Part shown: positions 245 through 12,755 of the stretch, piece by piece
Layout of the letters: each line of letters begins with the position of its first letter
How positions within the stretch are numbered: the first letter of the stretch is position 1
Assembly (NCBI GenBank): GCA_038400315.1
Contig: CP151667.1
Span: 3,049,174 to 3,113,173 of the forward strand
DNA length: 64,000 nucleotides
DNA from: Isosphaeraceae bacterium EP7
Lineage (GTDB): Bacteria; Planctomycetota; Planctomycetia; Isosphaerales; Isosphaeraceae
Reading direction: 5' to 3'
Translations under genes and position numbers: made by a program
Notes under the pieces: generated by a model
What the model saw: the letters and a program-made list of their open reading frames with translations, nothing else
Told to the model about the DNA's origin: nothing
Databases searched by the model: none

Positions 245-649
245 ATGTCCGTGACCCTGACTGTCCGCGATGAGACGCCGGCCGGGGGCGTTACGAATGA
301 GTGGTCGCTCGAGTTCCTGAGCGAGACGATCACCGTTCGCGAGCTGATCCGCGAACGCGTCTATCAGGAAGTGCAGGACTACAACGTCCGGCAGGGCACC
401 GGCGGGCCCTACCGCGGCCTGGTGCAGCCCGAAGGCTACGAGGTCGCCCTGAACGGCCCTCGATCGACGGCCAAGGCCCGGCCGATCGACTGGCACAAGC
501 AATTCGAGAAGGCCCTGGAAGCCTTCGAAACGAATCGGGTGCTCATCCTGATCGACGACCGCCAGGCCGAGTCGCTCGAACAGACCTTCGCGATCGGCCC
601 CGGCGTCGCCGTGACCTTCCTCCGGCTGACTCTGCTGGTGGGGGGCTGA
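245..649 (+). CDS. small predicted ubiquitin/ThiS-like beta-grasp protein with C-terminal Gly-Gly
   Basis: 134-residue protein without recognised homologue by name. The N-terminus reads as a beta-hairpin (SVTLTVRDE, then EWSLEFLSETI) followed by the helix TVRELIRERVYQEV, the order expected of ubiquitin-like beta-grasp folds, where TVRELL-type helices are common. The C-terminal part has a strand (RVLILIDDRQ), a loop (FAIGPGVAVTFLRL) and ends in LLVGG directly before TGA. ThiS, MoaD and Ubl proteins end in the same way, because the free Gly-Gly carboxylate is adenylated. The start ATG is preceded by a G-rich Shine-Dalgarno-like run (233-237). The DUF4132 gene begins 11 bases after the stop codon, so the two are almost certainly cotranscribed. 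No E1, E2 or JAB protease gene is visible nearby. The fold is inferred from pattern only; the GG terminus is seen directly. It could instead be an unrelated small protein that ends in GG by chance. Confidence 0.75.
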   Translation: MSVTLTVRDETPAGGVTNEWSLEFLSETITVRELIRERVYQEVQDYNVRQGTGGPYRGLVQPEGYEVALNGPRSTAKARPIDWHKQFEKALEAFETNRVLILIDDRQAESLEQTFAIGPGVAVTFLRLTLLVGG

Positions 650-659
650 CGCGATCCCC

Positions 660-3212
660 ATGCTCTATCGCGACGTCATCCCCGCCGAATCCGGCCGAGA
701 CCTGGAGCGGGAATTCCAGGCCCTGGAAACGTTCCGCGCCGAAATCCTGGCGATGGAGCGACCGGACGCCCTCATCAAGCCCGCCAAGTTGGCCTCCGGC
801 GCGGAGATCCTCGCGGGCGAGCCCGACTTCCAGATCGGCATCATCCTAGCCTCGTTGACCTTGTGGGCCGAGGATCGGATCAGCCCATGGAGCATTGATG
901 GGTCACTTGTGGGGAAACTGCGGTCCCAGATCCTCAAGCGCGATCTCCCCTATCAAGGCCGAGACCTCCGGGCGCTGGCCGCGGCGATCGACATCCTGAC
1001 CGCTCGCCATAAGGGGGTCGACCTGCTCGCCTTGTCCGCCCTCGAGCGATGCGCGCAGGACGCTGCCCTGCCCGAAGAGGCGATCGAACGGCTGAAGAAG
1101 GTCCAGCATCGGCTGCGGCACGGGCGACCGACCCCGTCCGATCTGAAGGCCGCCGCGCGAATCGGCAAGCTCGTCGGCGCCGTCGTGGAGTTCTCGCTCG
1201 ATCCGGGCGAGGCCTGGTCCGATGCGGCCCTCGGCGATCTCGAGGCGATGGAGCCGGCCCAGCGGGAGCGCTGGTCGGCGCTGCTCGCCGCTTGCCAGGC
1301 GGCCGACGGGGCCAAGATGACGGCCGCCCGGCTGAGCGCGATGAAATCGCTGGTCGAGGCCGTCGGCCGCGGCGAGTTCAAGGCCCACTTGCTCCGCTGG
1401 CTACCGCTGGTCGACAGGCCGCGGACACAGCCGAAGGTCCGCGTTAGCGATTGGATGCCGGACGAGAACGACCTGATCGAGCCGCACCATGCCGAGCTCC
1501 TCAAGTGCCTGGCCGTGTGCGCCGGCCTGGAGGCCGACCGCGAGCTGGCCCGGGCGCTGGCGGCGCTGGTCCTGAGCGCCTATCGCAAGATCCCGGGGAA
1601 GGGGCCGAGGCTCGTCTCGCTGGGCAATGCGGCGGTCGGGGCGCTGGGGATGATGCCCGGCATGGATGCCGTCGGGCAGCTCGCCCTGCTCAAGGTGAAG
1701 GTCAAGTTCATCCCGGCGCAGAAGGAGATCGAGAAGGCCCTGACCGCCGCGGCCACCCGCGAGGGCCTGCCGCGCGAGGAGATCGACGAGCTGGCCGTGC
1801 CCGCCTACGGCATGCACGAGGTCGGCCTCCGCCGCGAGGTCCTGGGCGAGTACGTGGCCGAATTGATCGTCGACGGGCCCGACGCCGCACTCCGCTGGAG
1901 CAAGGCCGCCGACGGCAAGCCGATCAAGACCGTGCCGGCCGCGGCCAAGAAGGGCCACGCCGACGAGGTGAAGGAGTTGCAGGCGGCCGTCAAGGACGTC
2001 GGCAAGATGCTCACCGCCCAGCGCGAGCGCATCGACGGCCTATTCCTGGCCCGCAAACGCTGGCCGCTGGAGGCCTGGAGAGCCCGCTACCTCGATCACC
2101 CGCTCGTCGGGGCCATCGCCCGCCGGCTCATCTGGCGGTTCCAGGCCGAAGGACAGGCCGCCGACGGCGCCTGGCTCGACGGCAGGCTCGTGGGCGTCGA
2201 CGACACCCCCCTGGCCGAGTTCGGCGAGGGGGCGACCGTCGAGCTCTGGCACCCGATCGGCCGGCCGATCGACGAGATCACGGCCTGGCGCGACTGGCTC
2301 GACCGGCATCGCGTCCGCCAGCCGTTCAAGCAGGCGCATCGCGAGGTCTACGTCCTGACCGACGCCGAGCGCAACACGCGCGTCTACTCGAACCGGTTCG
2401 CGGCGCACGTCCTGCGGCAGCACCAGTACAACGCCCTCTGCGCCGCCCGCGGCTGGCGGAACAAGCTCCGCCTGATGGTCGATGACACCTACCCGCCGAC
2501 CAGCAAGGACCTGCCCGACTGGGGCCTGCGGGCCGAGTTCTGGGTCGAGGGGATCGGCGACGAATACGGGGTCAGCACCACCGAATCCGGCACCTATCTG
2601 CACCTGGCCACCGACCAGGTCCGCTTCTACGAGATCGACGCCGCCCAGCGACTCGCCCACGCCGGCGGAGGCGGCTACTCGCCGGGATGGGGCGGACGCG
2701 ACGACGAGCCACTGCCGCTAGACCGGGTCCCGCCCCTGGTCCTTTCGGAGATCCTCCGCGACGTTGACCTGTTCGTCGGAGTCGGAAGTGTTGGCAACGA
2801 CCCGGCCTGGGCCGACGGCGGGCCCGAGGGGCGGCACGTCAACTACTGGCAGAGTTACAGCTTCGGAGACCTCTCGGCCAACGGGCAGACGCGCAAGGCC
2901 GTGCTCGAGCGGCTGATCCCACGCCTGGCGATCGCGCCTCGATGCTCGTTCAACGAGAAATTCCTGGTCGTCCGCGGCGACCTGCGCACCTACAAGATCC
3001 ACCTGGGCAGCGGCAACATCCTGATGGAGCCGAACGACCAGTACCTCTGCATCGTCCCCAAGCGAGGCGCCGGGGATGCGATCGAGCAGGGCGGGGTCTT
3101 CCTCCCGTTCGAGGGTGACGCCACCCTCTCGATCGTCCTGAGCAAGGCCATGCTTCTGGCCGCCGACACGAAGATCCAGGATCCGACCATCATCAGCCAG
3201 ATCGGGCGTTGA
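660..3212 (+). CDS. DUF4132 (MolR/YehI-like) domain protein
   Basis: 850-residue cytosolic protein with no signal peptide or membrane segment. The C-terminal half carries the DUF4132 signature, including the region around KRWPLEAWRARYLDHPLVG and the terminal block LSIVLSKAMLLAADTKIQDP. That last block is typical of large DUF4132 proteins related to E. coli MolR/YehI, whose biochemical role is not established. The N-terminal 400 residues are mostly helical and repeat-like. The ATG lies 10 bases past the stop of the GG-terminal protein, with the G-run at 640-645 as the likely ribosome binding site. The pair forms an operon and the small protein is the obvious candidate partner. Codon use matches the surrounding high-GC genes. 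The family call is firm. Nothing in the sequence shows a catalytic site, so no enzymatic function is proposed. Confidence 0.88.
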   Translation: MLYRDVIPAESGRDLEREFQALETFRAEILAMERPDALIKPAKLASGAEILAGEPDFQIGIILASLTLWAEDRISPWSIDGSLVGKLRSQILKRDLPYQGRDLRALAAAIDILTARHKGVDLLALSALERCAQDAALPEEAIERLKKVQHRLRHGRPTPSDLKAAARIGKLVGAVVEFSLDPGEAWSDAALGDLEAMEPAQRERWSALLAACQAADGAKMTAARLSAMKSLVEAVGRGEFKAHLLRWLPLVDRPRTQPKVRVSDWMPDENDLIEPHHAELLKCLAVCAGLEADRELARALAALVLSAYRKIPGKGPRLVSLGNAAVGALGMMPGMDAVGQLALLKVKVKFIPAQKEIEKALTAAATREGLPREEIDELAVPAYGMHEVGLRREVLGEYVAELIVDGPDAALRWSKAADGKPIKTVPAAAKKGHADEVKELQAAVKDVGKMLTAQRERIDGLFLARKRWPLEAWRARYLDHPLVGAIARRLIWRFQAEGQAADGAWLDGRLVGVDDTPLAEFGEGATVELWHPIGRPIDEITAWRDWLDRHRVRQPFKQAHREVYVLTDAERNTRVYSNRFAAHVLRQHQYNALCAARGWRNKLRLMVDDTYPPTSKDLPDWGLRAEFWVEGIGDEYGVSTTESGTYLHLATDQVRFYEIDAAQRLAHAGGGGYSPGWGGRDDEPLPLDRVPPLVLSEILRDVDLFVGVGSVGNDPAWADGGPEGRHVNYWQSYSFGDLSANGQTRKAVLERLIPRLAIAPRCSFNEKFLVVRGDLRTYKIHLGSGNILMEPNDQYLCIVPKRGAGDAIEQGGVFLPFEGDATLSIVLSKAMLLAADTKIQDPTIISQIGR

Positions 3213-3233
3213 CCGGACACCGCGCGAGCGACG

Positions 3234-3716
3234 TCAGGCCAGCTTCCAGAGCGTCACCCGCGTGGCCAGGGTCCAGTAGTCCTTGGTGTTCTTGTATTCG
3301 CTGGAGAAGCTGCTGCCGTCCCAGGCGTCGAGATGGCCGGTGGCGTCGGCGAACTGGATGTCGAAGGCGATGATCCCCTTCATCGCGGCGATCTGAGTCT
3401 TGTCGAAGGCCTCGCCCGCCTTCTTCGTCAGGTTGAAGCTGGCCGCGCCAAGCGAAGTCGGCAGCCACTTGCGCATCTCGGCCACGCGCAGGGCGTAGCG
3501 CTTGCCGTCGGCCCCTTTGAGGGTCAGCAGGCCGGCGAATTTCGACGGTAGCGGCACTCCGCCGTAGTTCAGGCCGCGGCTCATACGGACAGCGCAGGTA
3601 TTCACGATCCAGGCGGCGTCGACCTCGCCGCCGATCTCCGCTTTCACGGCCGCCGAGTCGGGGCTCGTGCCGTAATCGGGATATTCCGCCCAGAACTTCG
3701 CCCAGGTCATTGCCAT
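3234..3716 (-). CDS. Tae4-like NlpC/P60 peptidoglycan amidase
   Basis: 160-residue protein resembling the type VI secretion amidase effector Tae4 family, which cleaves peptide crosslinks of peptidoglycan. The expected catalytic elements are visible: Cys41 in NTCAVRMSRGLN, His128 and Asp130 in GHLDAW, and the structural stretch MKGIIAFDIQF between them. The length is normal for the family. There is no N-terminal signal peptide, consistent with delivery by another system, but no type VI secretion gene and no Tai4-like immunity gene is visible in the window. It converges with the DUF4132 gene, with 21 bases between the stop codons. A 3' remnant of a second copy lies at 25-81, so the gene was once duplicated around the GG-protein operon. 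The protein family is well supported; use as a secreted toxin is inference. Confidence 0.85.
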   Translation of the reverse strand: MAMTWAKFWAEYPDYGTSPDSAAVKAEIGGEVDAAWIVNTCAVRMSRGLNYGGVPLPSKFAGLLTLKGADGKRYALRVAEMRKWLPTSLGAASFNLTKKAGEAFDKTQIAAMKGIIAFDIQFADATGHLDAWDGSSFSSEYKNTKDYWTLATRVTLWKLA

Positions 3717-3867
3717 CGAACCGACTCCGGGGGGGGAGGGTGGGCCGCATCGGCCCCATGATGCTTTCTACCGCCGATCAGGCCAAACGTGACCCGATGG
3801 CCGGGGCGTCTCCGAGGGCAGGGGGCCGATTCCTTGAATTCTCGGGGGCTCCCCGCTAAGCTCGGTG

Positions 3868-4042
3868 ACTGAACACCCGTCGGGCGCCCGGCCAACCGAT
3901 CCTAGGCCGGGCAGGAAGCCGGTGAAATTCCGGCGCGGGACCGCCGCTGTAAGCGAGGAGGTCCCCGGGCAATTCGCCACTGCGGCCATCAACTGGCCGT
4001 GGGAAGGCGCCCGGGAACCGATCGACTCGCGAGCCAGAATAC
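3868..4042 (+). promoter_or_regulatory. cobalamin (AdoCbl-type) riboswitch
   Basis: The conserved core of the B12 riboswitch is present in order: the segment AGCCGGTGAAATTCCGG at 3918-3934, the CCGCCGCTGTAAGC segment at 3941-3954, the B12-box GCCACTG at 3976-3982, the GGGAAGGC segment near 3999-4006 and the closing CGCGAGCCAGAATAC at 4028-4042. It lies on the plus strand, about 360 bases upstream of the first of two DUF4465 PEP-CTERM genes and facing them. This implies that those genes are repressed when cobalamin is plentiful. The expression platform is not obvious (see the leader entry). The 5' boundary is approximate. Confidence 0.9.
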
Positions 4043-4404
4043 GGCCCGATGGGAGACCCAGGCGATGCTTCGGCCTCAAGCATCCGGGGGCAAGTCCGTG
4101 CGCGCCGCGCTCAACGCGCGGTCCCAACGCGCGGGACCTTGCCTTTCCGTGGGGCCGTCGAATCGCCGACGCCCAGGAAAGGTCCGCCCGGTTGCCAGCC
4201 CAACCCACCTGTAGCCCCGTCCCCGACGGGCAACGGACTCGCGACCGCCGCACCCCGGCCGGGAGTGCGCATCGCGTCGAAATACCCCACGTTCGCACGG
4301 CGCATGCCGATGCGCGGGATGCCCCGCGCCCCGCGCCCACCGCAGCCCAACCCCCGGGCATGAACCCATCCCGCTCGAACCACCCGCAAACGGAGCCGCT
4401 CCCG
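4043..4404 (+). other. long leader between riboswitch and first DUF4465 gene
   Basis: 362 bases without a convincing gene. A perfect 7-bp hairpin (GATGCTT at 4064-4070, AAGCATC at 4078-4084) follows the riboswitch core at once and may be part of the expression platform, though no U-tract follows it, so it is not a standard terminator. A Shine-Dalgarno-like CGGAG lies at 4391-4395. An open frame runs through the leader into the DUF4465 gene, but it covers the riboswitch and lacks a sensible start. Confidence 0.5.
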
Positions 4405-5250
4405 ATGAATCGCCCCTTCGCGCCCCTGCTGGCCGCCCTCGGCCTGGCCCTTTTTGGCGCAGGACGCTCGGCCGCAGATAGCGTCGTTGACTTCAATGAC
4501 GTGCCCCTCGCGCCCAACTCGGCCAGCTACGGCTACGACCCCAGCATCCCCGTCGGCGGGTCGGCGACCACCCACTTCCAGAGCGGCGGGGCCTCGTTCT
4601 CGCACACCTTCACCAACTACGGCGGCGGGTTCACCGGCTGGGACGGCACCGCCGTCTCCAACGTGAATGACCCCACCACCGCCGGCTTCACCAACCAGTT
4701 CGCCGCCGTCACCGGCACCGGCTACAACCCCGCCTCGGGCGGCCTGGTCGACAACTACGCCGTCGTCACCCCCTCCGTCAGCATCGGCGTGGCCCCCGGG
4801 CAGTCCATCGCCGGCCTGTACGTCACCAACACCACCTATGCTGCGCTGTCGATGACGAACGGCGACGGCTTCGCCAAGCAATTCGGCGGAATCTCGGGAA
4901 GCGACGCCGACTGGTTCAAGCTCACCGCCAGCGGCAAGGACGCCAACGGAAACGCCCTGGCCAGCACGGTCGACTTCTACCTGGCCGACTTCCGTTTCGT
5001 CGACAACTCGAAGGATTACATCGTCAACGACTGGCGCTTCATGGACCTCTCCGCGCTCGCAGACGCCTCGTCCATCTCCTTCCGATTCAGCTCTTCCGAC
5101 GTCGGCGCCTACGGCATGAACACCCCCGCCTACGCCGCCATCGACAACCTCGTCTTCCGCTCGGCCGTCGCCGTGCCCGAGCCCGCCACGCTCGTGATGT
5201 CCGCCACCGCCGGGCTCATCCTCGCCGCCGCCGGCGCCCGCCGACGCTGA
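4405..5250 (+). CDS. DUF4465 domain PEP-CTERM protein, copy 1
   Basis: 281-residue exported protein. Residues 1-24 form a signal peptide (MNRPFAPLLAALGLALFGAG, cleaved near SAADS). The body carries the DUF4465 signature: VVDFNDV at the N-terminus, SGGASFSHTF, LYVTNTTYAALSM, the NGDGFAKQFGG block, LADFRFVDNSKDYIV, then MNTPAYAAIDNLVF. The C-terminus is a PEP-CTERM sorting tail: VPEPATLV, a hydrophobic helix, then ARRR. Exosortase should remove this tail while the protein is placed at the cell surface. The start was taken at 4405 because it gives a clean signal peptide and has CGGAG upstream. The cobalamin riboswitch upstream predicts a role in corrinoid binding or uptake; this is inference. 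A paralogue follows 156 bases downstream. Confidence 0.9.
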   Translation: MNRPFAPLLAALGLALFGAGRSAADSVVDFNDVPLAPNSASYGYDPSIPVGGSATTHFQSGGASFSHTFTNYGGGFTGWDGTAVSNVNDPTTAGFTNQFAAVTGTGYNPASGGLVDNYAVVTPSVSIGVAPGQSIAGLYVTNTTYAALSMTNGDGFAKQFGGISGSDADWFKLTASGKDANGNALASTVDFYLADFRFVDNSKDYIVNDWRFMDLSALADASSISFRFSSSDVGAYGMNTPAYAAIDNLVFRSAVAVPEPATLVMSATAGLILAAAGARRR

Positions 5251-5406
5251 GTCGAATCGCGGGGTGAGGCCACGGACGGCCGACCTCGCTTAATCAACAT
5301 TGATTCATGCAACTGACGAGGTCCGCTCCCCCGCGAGCGGCCCCCTCGGTTGCCGCTGCGCGTCTCGAAAACTCGGCCTCCTCCCCGCTCCCAGGGCAAT
5401 CGACCC

Positions 5407-6327
5407 ATGAATCGCATGCTCCTCGGCTCGCTCGTCGCCCTCGCCCTCGCGGTGCGCCCGGCAGCCGCAGACTCCGTCGTCGACTTCAATGACCTGACGC
5501 TCGCCCCCGACTCCGCCTTCAACGGCCCGGTCCCCGGCGGCACCACCGTCGACGGCCCCTACGGCCCCGTGGTCGTCGGCTCGTTCCAGAGCGGCGGCGC
5601 GAGCTTCGGCAATGCCTATGACACGACCTACGGCAGCTGGAACGGATTCGCCTACTCCAACGTCAACGACACCACCACGCCCGGCTTCACCAACCAGTTC
5701 GCCGCCGTCACCGGCACCGGCCACACCCCCGTCGCCCCCGGCCAGGTCGACAACTACGGCGTCGCCTTCGGTTATCGCGACATCGCGGCCAGTAGCTCGG
5801 GCAACGCCGCATTCGACCCCTCGAATGCCGGCCAGCTCCGCGGCCTCCCCACCATCGGCCTCCCCGCAGGCCAGGGCCTCGCCGGCCTGTACGTCACCAA
5901 CACGACATATGCCGCCAAGTCAATGCTCAACGGCGACGGCTTCGCCAAGAAGTTCGGCGGAGACTCGGGCAACGACGCCGACTTCTTCAGGCTCTCCGCC
6001 TACGGCATCGACGCCAACGGCAATGCCCTGGCCGCCCACGTCGACTTCGACCTGGCCGACTTCCGCTTCGCCGACAACTCGATGGACTACATCGTCGACG
6101 ACTGGCGCTTCATGGACCTCTCCGCGCTCGCCGGCGCCGTCAGCGTCTCGTTCAATCTCTCGTCGTCGGATGTCGGGAGCTATGGCATGAACACGCCCGC
6201 GTATTTCGCCTTCGACGACCTCGTCTTCCGCTCGTCGGTCGCCGTCCCCGAGCCCGCCACGCTGGTGATGTCCGCCATCGCCGGGCTGGCCATCGCCCCC
6301 CTGGCCCTGCGCCGCAAGGCGGCCTGA
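5407..6327 (+). CDS. DUF4465 domain PEP-CTERM protein, copy 2
   Basis: 306-residue paralogue of the preceding gene with the same plan: signal peptide (MNRMLLGSLVALALAVRPAA), DUF4465 body with VVDFNDLTLAP, SGGASFGNAYD, LYVTNTTYAAKSM, NGDGFAKKFGG and MNTPAYFAFDDLVF, and a PEP-CTERM tail (VPEPATLVMSAIAG, then RRKAA). It is about 25 residues longer than copy 1, mainly through an insert around residues 120-145. No second riboswitch or obvious terminator separates the genes, so both are probably read from the riboswitch-controlled promoter. Followed by a strong terminator hairpin at 6339-6369. The substrate is unknown; the regulatory context points to cobalamin. Confidence 0.9.
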   Translation: MNRMLLGSLVALALAVRPAAADSVVDFNDLTLAPDSAFNGPVPGGTTVDGPYGPVVVGSFQSGGASFGNAYDTTYGSWNGFAYSNVNDTTTPGFTNQFAAVTGTGHTPVAPGQVDNYGVAFGYRDIAASSSGNAAFDPSNAGQLRGLPTIGLPAGQGLAGLYVTNTTYAAKSMLNGDGFAKKFGGDSGNDADFFRLSAYGIDANGNALAAHVDFDLADFRFADNSMDYIVDDWRFMDLSALAGAVSVSFNLSSSDVGSYGMNTPAYFAFDDLVFRSSVAVPEPATLVMSAIAGLAIAPLALRRKAA

Positions 6328-10348: not shown

Positions 10349-10990
10349 ATGCAAATCACAGCGAAGCTCAAGGCGATCACCGCCGTCGCCGCCGTCGCCC
10401 TCGCCATCGCCGCACCGGCCAAGGCCGATCAGGTCGGCCAGTTCATCCAGCTCGCCCCCACCCCCACGTTCACCTTCACGAACCTGGGCACCGTCGGCGG
10501 CTCCATCATCGGCGCCGACATCAAGCCCGGCCTGTATGTCGACGCCATCGGCGGCGGCTCCTACAGCGCCAGCACCAACCTCAACCTCCAGTACGTCGGC
10601 GGCGACACCTACAGCGGCTCCTACAGCATCGTCGCCACCGCCGCCAGCGGATCGATCGCCATCGGCGACGTCCTCTTCTCGGCCGCCTACACCGCCACCC
10701 TCACCGGCGGCAACGGCTCGCTGAGCCTGAACAACGTCCTGACGACCGGCATCTTCTCCGCCCTCTACACCCAGCCCCTCTTCGACGCCGTCACCGGCTT
10801 CACGATGACCAACGTCAAGGGTAGCGTCAACACCACCAGCTCGCCCATCACGGGCAGCGGCACCGGCAACGGCGTGATCTCGATCTCGGCCAACCTGGCC
10901 GCCGTGCCCGAGCCCGCCTCGATGGTCATGCTCGGCCTGGGCATGCTCGCGCCGATCGCCCTCGGCGTCCGCCGCGCCTCCAAGGTCTGA
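10349..10990 (+). CDS. PEP-CTERM protein, paralogue B
   Basis: 213-residue paralogue of the gene at 8958. Signal peptide MQITAKLKAITAVAAVALAI, then the same DQVGQFIQLAPTPTFTF start of the mature protein and the same LYVDAIGGGSYSAST block. The second half differs more (for example NNVLTTGIFSALYTQPLFDA). The C-terminus VPEPASMVMLGLGMLAPIAL followed by VRRASKV is a PEP-CTERM tail. The two genes are 1391 bases apart start to start, which fits a tandem duplication of a unit that included the leader. Function unknown; likely surface protein. Confidence 0.85.
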   Translation: MQITAKLKAITAVAAVALAIAAPAKADQVGQFIQLAPTPTFTFTNLGTVGGSIIGADIKPGLYVDAIGGGSYSASTNLNLQYVGGDTYSGSYSIVATAASGSIAIGDVLFSAAYTATLTGGNGSLSLNNVLTTGIFSALYTQPLFDAVTGFTMTNVKGSVNTTSSPITGSGTGNGVISISANLAAVPEPASMVMLGLGMLAPIALGVRRASKV

Positions 10991-11057
10991 GCCACGGCAA
11001 CGGTCTGAGCCGGGCAACGCCCCTCTTCCGCGTCGTCGTCCGCAATCGAAAAAATGG

Positions 11058-11093
11058 CGCCGTGGTCTCTCCTCAAAAGGTGGGGCCACGGCG
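11058..11093 (+). terminator. hairpin downstream of PEP-CTERM gene B
   Basis: Inverted repeat CGCCGTGG (11058-11065) and CCACGGCG (11086-11093) with a 20-base loop that can pair further inside. No T-tract follows. Position, 67 bases past the stop codon, suggests a transcription stop. Confidence 0.45.
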
Positions 11094-11879
11094 TCGTCGC
11101 GCGCCCCTCGATCGACCCCGCTCTCACTGGCATGGCCCCCGCCGACACATCCTTCCCGGCCCCTCGCCCGCGATCCCGCCCGACGTCGCCCCGCATCGAA
11201 CCTCGGCCCGACCTCGCCTCACCCCGCAATCCTCTCGGCCTGCCGACGCCGAAGCATTGCGGATTTGCCCGGATGTCCTGCGGCAACTCCACCTAGAACC
11301 AGTCTAGTACGTAAATCGCGGGCAATGACCCGCTTTTAGCACGAATTCAGGGCACCTTGCCGCCTCCATACGAGGATGTCCACCCCGTCAATCGGCCGGA
11401 AAACGCCACAAATCACAGCAGCAATGCCCACATTTCTCGCAATCCGAACCCTTCCGGCCACCCTCTCTCGCCATTCAAACGCCACGTCATCCAGTCATAT
11501 CGGTCCAAAATCAAATCTGTCATCTTCATGGAATCTGCATAATTAAACCGGCCGACCCCTGGCCGCTCCCCCGTTTCCCCTGGCTGCCCCACTCAAGGGG
11601 AGTCGCTGGCCTCCGATCGATTGTTTGGCGAGATCGAGCCTCTTGCCGCCCCCGGTCAATTCGCGGGCCACGCCGGTCGCCGGGATGCCGTCCGCCCCCG
11701 TCCTGAAGAGGTCGTCTTGACCACGGGCGGCATCATCTGCGACGATTTCCCTTTCGAACACAGGCCGCCCGCGATCGGGCGGGGGTCGCCCGCGCGCCAA
11801 CCCTCGCCCGAACTCCGATTGAGGGGCGAGCTCGCCCCTCCTCCCCCGATGCCCGGCGCTCCCGTCCCGGGCGACATCC
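11094..11879. other. intergenic stretch upstream of the HD-domain gene
   Basis: About 790 bases without a recognisable gene. The middle (11300-11560) is clearly AT-richer than its surroundings. Short open frames on both strands show no signature or ribosome binding site. A small terminator-like hairpin at 11318-11337 could end a short untranslated transcript. The last 150 bases are GC-rich and presumably carry the promoter of the HD gene. Confidence 0.45.
11318..11337 (+). terminator. small intrinsic-terminator-like hairpin with TTTT
   Basis: GCGGG (11318-11322), a 6-base loop, CCCGC (11329-11333), then TTTT. The stem is short. It is far from any annotated gene end on this strand, so it may belong to an unannotated small RNA or be chance. 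Confidence 0.3.
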
Positions 11880-12755
11880 ATGCACGATCAATTCAAGAAA
11901 CGCTTCCGCGATGGCGCCAAGGGGGCCAGCGGGGACAGGCTCCGCCTCCAGATCGCCGTCGAGGCCGCCAAGCGGCTCTATCCCGTCATCGGCCCCGCCG
12001 AGGGGGCCGACCCTGGCGTCCTGCGCGACGCCACCGAGGCCGAATACTACGCGGCCAAGCGCAAGGCCGCCGCCGTCCTCGGCCATCGCGTCAGGCCCGG
12101 TGATCTCCCCTCCGACTCCGAGGTCCGCCAGCAGGTCCTCGCCCTTGCCCGCGGCGGCCACGACGACGAGACCGCGGACGACGACGCCGAGGGCGACTCG
12201 GACGAAGACGCCCCCGAGGCCTCCTTCGACCGCCTGGCCGACGTCATCGACCGCTTCGCCGTCTACAAGCTCAGGCTCCTCCCCCTCGAATCGGTGAAGC
12301 AGGATCCGCGCAGGCATCCCGAAGGCGACGCCCTCTACCACAGCCTCCAGGCCTACGAGCAGGCCCGCGCCGTGCGCCCCTACGACGAGGAATTCCTGCT
12401 GGCGGCCCTACTGCACGACGTCGGCAAGGCCGTCGACCCCCGCGACCACATCGCCGCCGGGGTCGACGCCCTCCGCGGCTCAGTCACCCCCCGCACCCTC
12501 TGGCTCGTCGGGCACCAGAAGGACGCGGCCGGTCGCGGCGTCGCGCGGGCCTCGGCCCCCGAGTCGGCCGACTGGCTCGAAGACCTGGCACTGCTCCGCG
12601 AGGTCGACGAGGCCGCACGCGTCCCCGGTGTGTCCGTCCCCACCGTCGAGGAGGCCCTGGACGCCCTGCGCGCCCTCGAGGCCGAGAACGACGAGGGTGC
12701 GGACGAGCCGCCCGCCGAGGCAGAAATCCAGGCCCCAGACGACGACACCCCTTGA
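11880..12755 (+). CDS. HD-domain protein, probable metal-dependent phosphohydrolase
   Basis: 291-residue soluble protein. The HD motif lies at His179-Asp180 in LLAALLHDVGKAVDPRDH, preceded by YHSLQAYEQAR (His-containing helix) and followed by LWLVGHQKD, which supplies further metal ligands in this superfamily. An acidic, disordered segment (residues about 96-116, rich in Asp and Glu) separates an N-terminal helical part from the HD core, and the C-terminus is also acidic. HD proteins hydrolyse phosphate esters, often of nucleotides; the substrate cannot be read from the sequence. It is 22 bases upstream of a HAD hydrolase, so both are probably cotranscribed. Confidence 0.8.
   Translation: MHDQFKKRFRDGAKGASGDRLRLQIAVEAAKRLYPVIGPAEGADPGVLRDATEAEYYAAKRKAAAVLGHRVRPGDLPSDSEVRQQVLALARGGHDDETADDDAEGDSDEDAPEASFDRLADVIDRFAVYKLRLLPLESVKQDPRRHPEGDALYHSLQAYEQARAVRPYDEEFLLAALLHDVGKAVDPRDHIAAGVDALRGSVTPRTLWLVGHQKDAAGRGVARASAPESADWLEDLALLREVDEAARVPGVSVPTVEEALDALRALEAENDEGADEPPAEAEIQAPDDDTP

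Follow-up and report, generated by a model that had tools for sequence, protein, structure and literature searches.

The DNA analysed here, which we call the window, is a stretch of 64,000 nt from Isosphaeraceae bacterium EP7 (GCA_038400315.1, contig CP151667.1, positions 3,049,174 to 3,113,173 of the forward strand). An earlier note on this sequence had described a 134-residue reading frame ending in LLVGG, placed 10 bases before an 850-residue DUF4132 gene, and this arrangement is confirmed: a small ORF at 245..649 (+) encodes a 134-aa protein of the DR_A0165 type, predicted from an AlphaFold2 model, PDB matches and 61 homologues to be ubiquitin-like (beta-grasp), and its C-terminal Gly-Gly codons (641..646, +) lie immediately 5' of the stop. 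After a gap of 10 bases (650..659, +) follows the ORF of the 850-aa partner protein (660..3212, +). Similar gaps of a few bases, or overlaps, are found at many homologous loci, and the 10-base gap makes co-transcription and translational coupling of the pair probable. The small protein has homologues in 10 of 40 relatives and at 61 loci of named genomes, so both ORFs are real genes; the DUF4132 gene of the pair is the only one in the EP7 genome. On the 3' side of the pair, a gene resembling Tae4-type amidase effectors (E 2.6e-23) occupies 3234-3716 (-), and a stretch of ~50 bp from its 3' end is duplicated upstream of the pair (23-74 versus 3232-3292, 78% identity); direct repeats thus lie on both sides of the cassette, as though it had been inserted or copied at the Tae4-type gene. 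Beyond it, 3865-6327 (+) holds two tandem, mutually similar PEP-CTERM-like surface proteins with VPEPATLVMSA... ends.

The partner protein combines three regions. Residues ~12-379 (693..1796, +) form a helical, HEAT/ARM-like repeat region in the secondary structure of its AlphaFold2 model (pLDDT 84.1), whose N-terminal half consists of helical repeats, and the same residues give weak structure matches to importins and CAND1. Pfam places a DUF4132 domain at residues 419-599 (1914..2456, +; E 1.5e-50, bit score 172) and a DUF7737 domain at residues 743-848 (2886..3203, +; E 1.3e-40, bit score 138), both against cut-offs of 27, and it is DUF7737 that marks the subfamily paired with the ubiquitin-like protein. 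The C-terminal half is conserved, with many invariant residues including H531, H583, H781 and C797. The DUF4132/DUF7737 half has no PDB or viral structure match, the matches falling on the helical repeats. In the literature searched, whose scope left out most subscription journals, we found three papers that name DUF4132, none of which ties it to a ubiquitin-like protein, and no mention of DUF5724, a domain that accompanies some relatives of the partner (see below).

AlphaFold2, given 12 homologues of the small protein as input, returned a model (pLDDT 76.7, pTM 0.72) with strands at residues 3-10 and 16-24, helices at 31-52 and 83-95 and then further strands, together with a low-confidence insert at ~66-77 and a disordered tail at 131-134. 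Foldseek matches in the PDB are mostly SUMO, ISG15, ubiquitin, NEDD8, MoaD and Urm1-like chains, the other recurrent group being bacterial superantigens, proteins that likewise include a beta-grasp domain. VIA-align superimposes the model on MoaD (Z 7.6), on ISG15 with an rmsd of 1.8 over 72 residues (Z 7.2) and on ubiquitin with an rmsd of 2.2 over 73 residues (Z 6.7). Values of Z below 8 are modest and it is the uniform list of matches that convinces us; the ubiquitin/MoaD beta-grasp fold of the predicted structure is strongly supported, and structure prediction, Foldseek and VIA-align all uphold the beta-grasp plan first proposed for this protein. Conserved residues are concentrated in the helix RVYQEVxDYN and close to W83 and Q107, and F125, L131 and G134 are invariant.

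By sequence the small protein stands apart. It has no family in Pfam, NCBIfam or PADLOC; NCBIfam and PADLOC have no model for either protein of the pair, PADLOC gives no anti-phage annotation, and searches by sequence found no convincing relatives of solved structure. Membership of the ThiS/MoaD family (PF02597) was considered and rejected: four of 59 homologues touch the ThiS profile (best E 0.13, below the curated cut-off), and in a profile comparison with ThiS-type carriers the tail register alone aligns (P 0.024, probability 2%), so that homology to these carriers rests on fold. Nor does the protein belong with Pup or UBact, short disordered modifiers with a GGQ or GGE end, being folded, 134 aa long and terminated by GG.

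The C-terminus of the EP7 protein reads VTFLRLTLLVGG, with FLRLTLLVGG at its end and the codons GGG GGC TGA at 641-649. One scan of 84,980 species genomes yielded 61 homologues, and of the 60 whose end could be read, 59 place Gly-Gly directly before the stop (57 LVGG and 2 LAGG, the remaining one being LVAG). Among the other predicted genes of the same loci such ends occur in 7 of 591 (1.2%), and by this comparison the tail is more than chance. The position of the EP7 codons, G-rich and just upstream of the DUF4132 start, could have suggested a constraint at the DNA level, with Gly-Gly a by-product of the ribosome-binding site of the next gene or else a coincidence. Against this, the tail is kept where the gene order is reversed, with DUF4132 first (six loci: L033, L036, L043, L044, L049 and L069) and where the two genes are apart (loci L032 and L067; genomes G338 and G332), and all four Gly codons are in use at both positions among the scan homologues. 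Gene order and codon variation lead us to reject the ribosome-binding-site explanation, and we regard a by-product or chance origin as exceedingly improbable.

The two genes are tightly linked. DUF4132 adjoins the small gene at 56 of the 61 loci; of the other five, L042 and L076 are consistent with contig ends, L032 and L067 have the partner elsewhere in the genome, and L081 lies in a genome without DUF7737 and has a tail ending VAG. We also surveyed 294 planctomycete genomes: DUF4132 was encountered 46 times (in 32 genomes), the small gene 18 times (in 17) and full-length DUF7737 19 times (in 18), the last two co-occurring in 16 genomes (Fisher p 2.6e-23). In the relatives, genes were called by a simple ORF script, and some assemblies are incomplete metagenomes, making absences soft. 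The small gene is adjacent to 17 of the 19 DUF4132 genes with DUF7737 versus 0 of the 27 without it (p 1e-10). One of the two non-adjacent cases starts at a contig end (G073), and the other (G246) truly has no such neighbour. The same pairing pattern is seen in cyanobacteria, the pair is also found in Novosphingobium and Nonomuraea, and both gene orders occur. That the partner is the DUF7737-bearing subset of DUF4132 proteins is thus strongly supported; the partnership proposed earlier stands as a specific one, and it does not extend to DUF4132 in general. MolR/YehI-type DUF4132/WGR proteins of E. coli share the DUF4132 domain with the partner, and E. coli has DUF4132 without DUF7737. A DUF4132 gene on an Acetobacter plasmid was considered as a further pair and set aside, its upstream gene not being ubiquitin-like. 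No third gene family stands beside the pair in more than 6 of 69 loci, those that recur are generic, and no E1, E2, JAB or sulfur gene family recurs there. We consider it very likely that fold, tail conservation and partner identity are correct.

No ThiF/E1 gene lies within the 64,000-nt window, which bears out the first impression that no E1-like gene is nearby; EP7's three ThiF genes are elsewhere on the chromosome, one with a rhodanese domain (MoeZ-type), one beside a ThiS-type carrier and one divergent. At least one ThiF-family gene was present in 25 of 25 module-bearing or related genomes tested, some of which have just one, and since E1s of this family are nearly universal, finding one is weak support. 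In carrier-acceptor pairs, for example MoaD-MoaE, ThiS-ThiG and CysO-CysM, the genes can lie apart from that of the E1, and an E1 can be shared. We propose that the small protein may be a dedicated ubiquitin-fold subunit of DUF4132-DUF7737, itself a putative scaffold of helical repeats whose C-terminal half is conserved. The free GG tail of the small protein would be activated in trans by a housekeeping MoeB/MoeZ-type E1, as an adenylate and then a thiocarboxylate or ester, and would be handed to the partner's C-terminal half, by analogy with the MoaD tail, which inserts into MoaE, and with ThiS and CysO, which work with ThiG and CysM. We judge activation in trans and transfer to the partner to be evenly balanced between right and wrong. 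At L154:5266-6743 (G000:C1, ~5.177 Mb), a ThiS-type carrier ending PAVAGG adjoins a ThiF E1, with a threonine-synthase-like gene before and a cysteine-desulfurase-like gene after (both judged by eye), resembling a CysO-like sulfur cluster. At L155:5464-6738 and 10957-12000 (G000:C1, ~697-704 kb), a JAB/MPN-domain protein is encoded a few kb from a divergent ThiF protein of 425 aa, a possible E1/isopeptidase pair.

A tree of 83 homologues, of which 72 end in GG, separates into clade A (67 rows, including EP7) and clade B (16 rows). Clade A members with the partner in their genome, the EP7 protein among them, end in a free Gly-Gly that no further residue follows, and they come from Planctomycetota, Cyanobacteriota, Acidobacteriota, Bacteroidota, Actinomycetota and Pseudomonadota. 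The three clade A rows without GG all come from two genomes without DUF7737 (two copies in G023, and one in Pan216, G027), and this restriction of the losses counts for the proposed activation of the tail and its delivery to the partner. The two G023 copies are in tandem (L024:10176-11374), end in VCC and DRP, and are decaying or repurposed. In clade B half of the rows lack GG: planctomycete tails there include LAGA and LSG, and Bacteroidota tails are FLAGSYW, FLTGTYW and MLSGRLW (G-x-x-W; G-x-[YL]-W), each beside a partner gene, so that the module also occurs with no free GG. Several clade B partners are ~1,640 aa long and also carry DUF5724. The presence of GG in both clades suggests, in a tree whose root is not fixed, that the tail is ancestral.

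These results divide what the earlier note had proposed about the tail. Conservation of the exposed GG holds for EP7's clade and fails for the family as a whole through the clade B losses; of the note's proposed support, a neighbourhood survey finding an adjacent small gene always ending in GG, the adjacency is strongly borne out (56/61 and 17/19) and the "always" breaks down outside EP7's clade; and homologues in the same position without GG, which it had named as counting against it, occur in sister clade B and not in clade A. The clade B tails also bring in the possibility of a non-covalent subunit, in which the small protein would be a structural or regulatory part of DUF4132-DUF7737 and GG would fit a groove of the partner with no E1 chemistry. 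The Bacteroidota G-x-[YL]-W tails cannot be activated as they stand although they lie beside the partner, the linkage to that partner is strict in a cassette without E1, E2 or protease, and the clustering of conserved residues in the RVYQEVxDYN helix and around W83 and Q107 is like that of a fixed interface. A pure docking tail would nevertheless be expected to allow an occasional extra residue or Ala, whereas clade A always keeps a free Gly-Gly where the partner is present, in all six phyla. Because clade B can dispense with a free GG, we rank plain docking second after E1 activation, as unlikely yet deserving serious attention. Should GG be chemically unused, the clade B tails would show a diglycine tail turned plain docking element; should it be used, the pair would form a ubiquitin-like pathway, and we found no description of a partner of its type.

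A connection to stress comes from Deinococcus radiodurans, where a clade B pair lies directly after trxC. The small protein, DR_A0165, matches the family profile (E 1.9e-13) and has the tail LTALAGG. An exact copy of the published DRA0165 DdrO operator, GGTTATGCTATTTACATAAC, is found a single time in this locus, its start lying 82 bp before the small-protein ORF, and by this the pair is drA0165-drA0166. Depletion of DdrO is reported to induce the operon strongly, and DRA0166 to increase with mitomycin C in an IrrE-dependent manner (PMC8533742). DR_A0165 (SEP068184) is induced by gamma rays and H2O2, its deletion raises survival of H2O2, and it binds Trx1 and has a predicted structure resembling MPT synthase (PMC9650054). 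The ubiquitin-like GG family went unrecognised and the link to the partner undiscussed in both papers, which disagree on whether a DdrO site is present, and one of the two called DR_A0165 not conserved outside Deinococcus (PMC9650054, PMC8533742). The present data correct both points, since the DdrO site is present and homologues occur widely. The Deinococcus pair is like that of EP7 in having the same small-protein family beside the same type of partner, and unlike it in being the clade B version with a partner of ~1.6 kaa. No LexA-like or DdrO-like motifs were found upstream of other homologues, so DNA-damage control is established for Deinococcus only. The module as a whole would serve a stress response, DNA-damage inducible in Deinococcus; a role in DNA damage or oxidative stress in other bacteria, extrapolated from one distant relative, we consider somewhat less probable than its opposite. 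The complete picture, of a stress-induced GG protein charged by a shared MoeZ-type E1 and passed onto or through DUF4132-DUF7737 as a pan-bacterial, previously unrecognised system, is likewise tentative and falls a little short of an even chance; it would make DUF4132-DUF7737 a novel type of ubiquitin-like acceptor or transferase.

The same organism bears on a broader reading, in which stress would lead to attachment of the tail to lysines on many different cellular proteins, DUF4132-DUF7737 serving as ligase or adaptor. The exposed GG tail and a large helical-repeat partner suited to substrate recruitment would fit this, as would the 157 proteins that co-purify with DR_A0165 (PMC9650054). Those 157, however, were recovered both with an N-terminal and with a C-terminal tag, and since the latter blocks the tail, these interactions do not need a free one; moreover, the cassette has no recurrent E2, E3 or isopeptidase family. 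Broad conjugation is accordingly possible but unsupported, and we think it improbable.

Among known systems, the module can be set beside MoaD, ThiS and CysO (PF02597), with which it shares a predicted beta-grasp fold, a C-terminal GG, a dedicated co-operonic partner and an E1 possibly encoded elsewhere; it differs in the length of the small protein (~130 versus 70-90 residues, with a conserved insert) and in a partner that is not a known sulfur acceptor. Type II CBASS, Bil and Bub cassettes encode their own E1 or E1-E2. Unlike them, the EP7 cassette has a single partner, no E1, E2 or JAB, and no PADLOC match, although those systems too are compact bacterial cassettes whose conjugation machinery is GG-tailed or ubiquitin-like (PMC10097602). 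The pairing gives a large domain of unknown function its first specific partner, adds a ubiquitin-fold family missed by the Pfam, NCBIfam and PADLOC libraries, and connects that family with the DNA-damage regulon of an organism amenable to genetics, for which mutants and co-IP data exist.

Two further loci concern the number and kind of partners. Genome G014 carries a second DUF4132-DUF7737 gene (L189, G014:C79) without a small gene of its own, with a complete pair elsewhere in the genome, and two partners may there share one ubiquitin-like protein. In G095, a genome without DUF7737, a divergent homologue ending FLRMIQVAGG (L135:1810-2421) lies near a gene resembling an HPr-kinase-like protein (judged by eye) in place of DUF4132, from which the small-protein family may have other partners.
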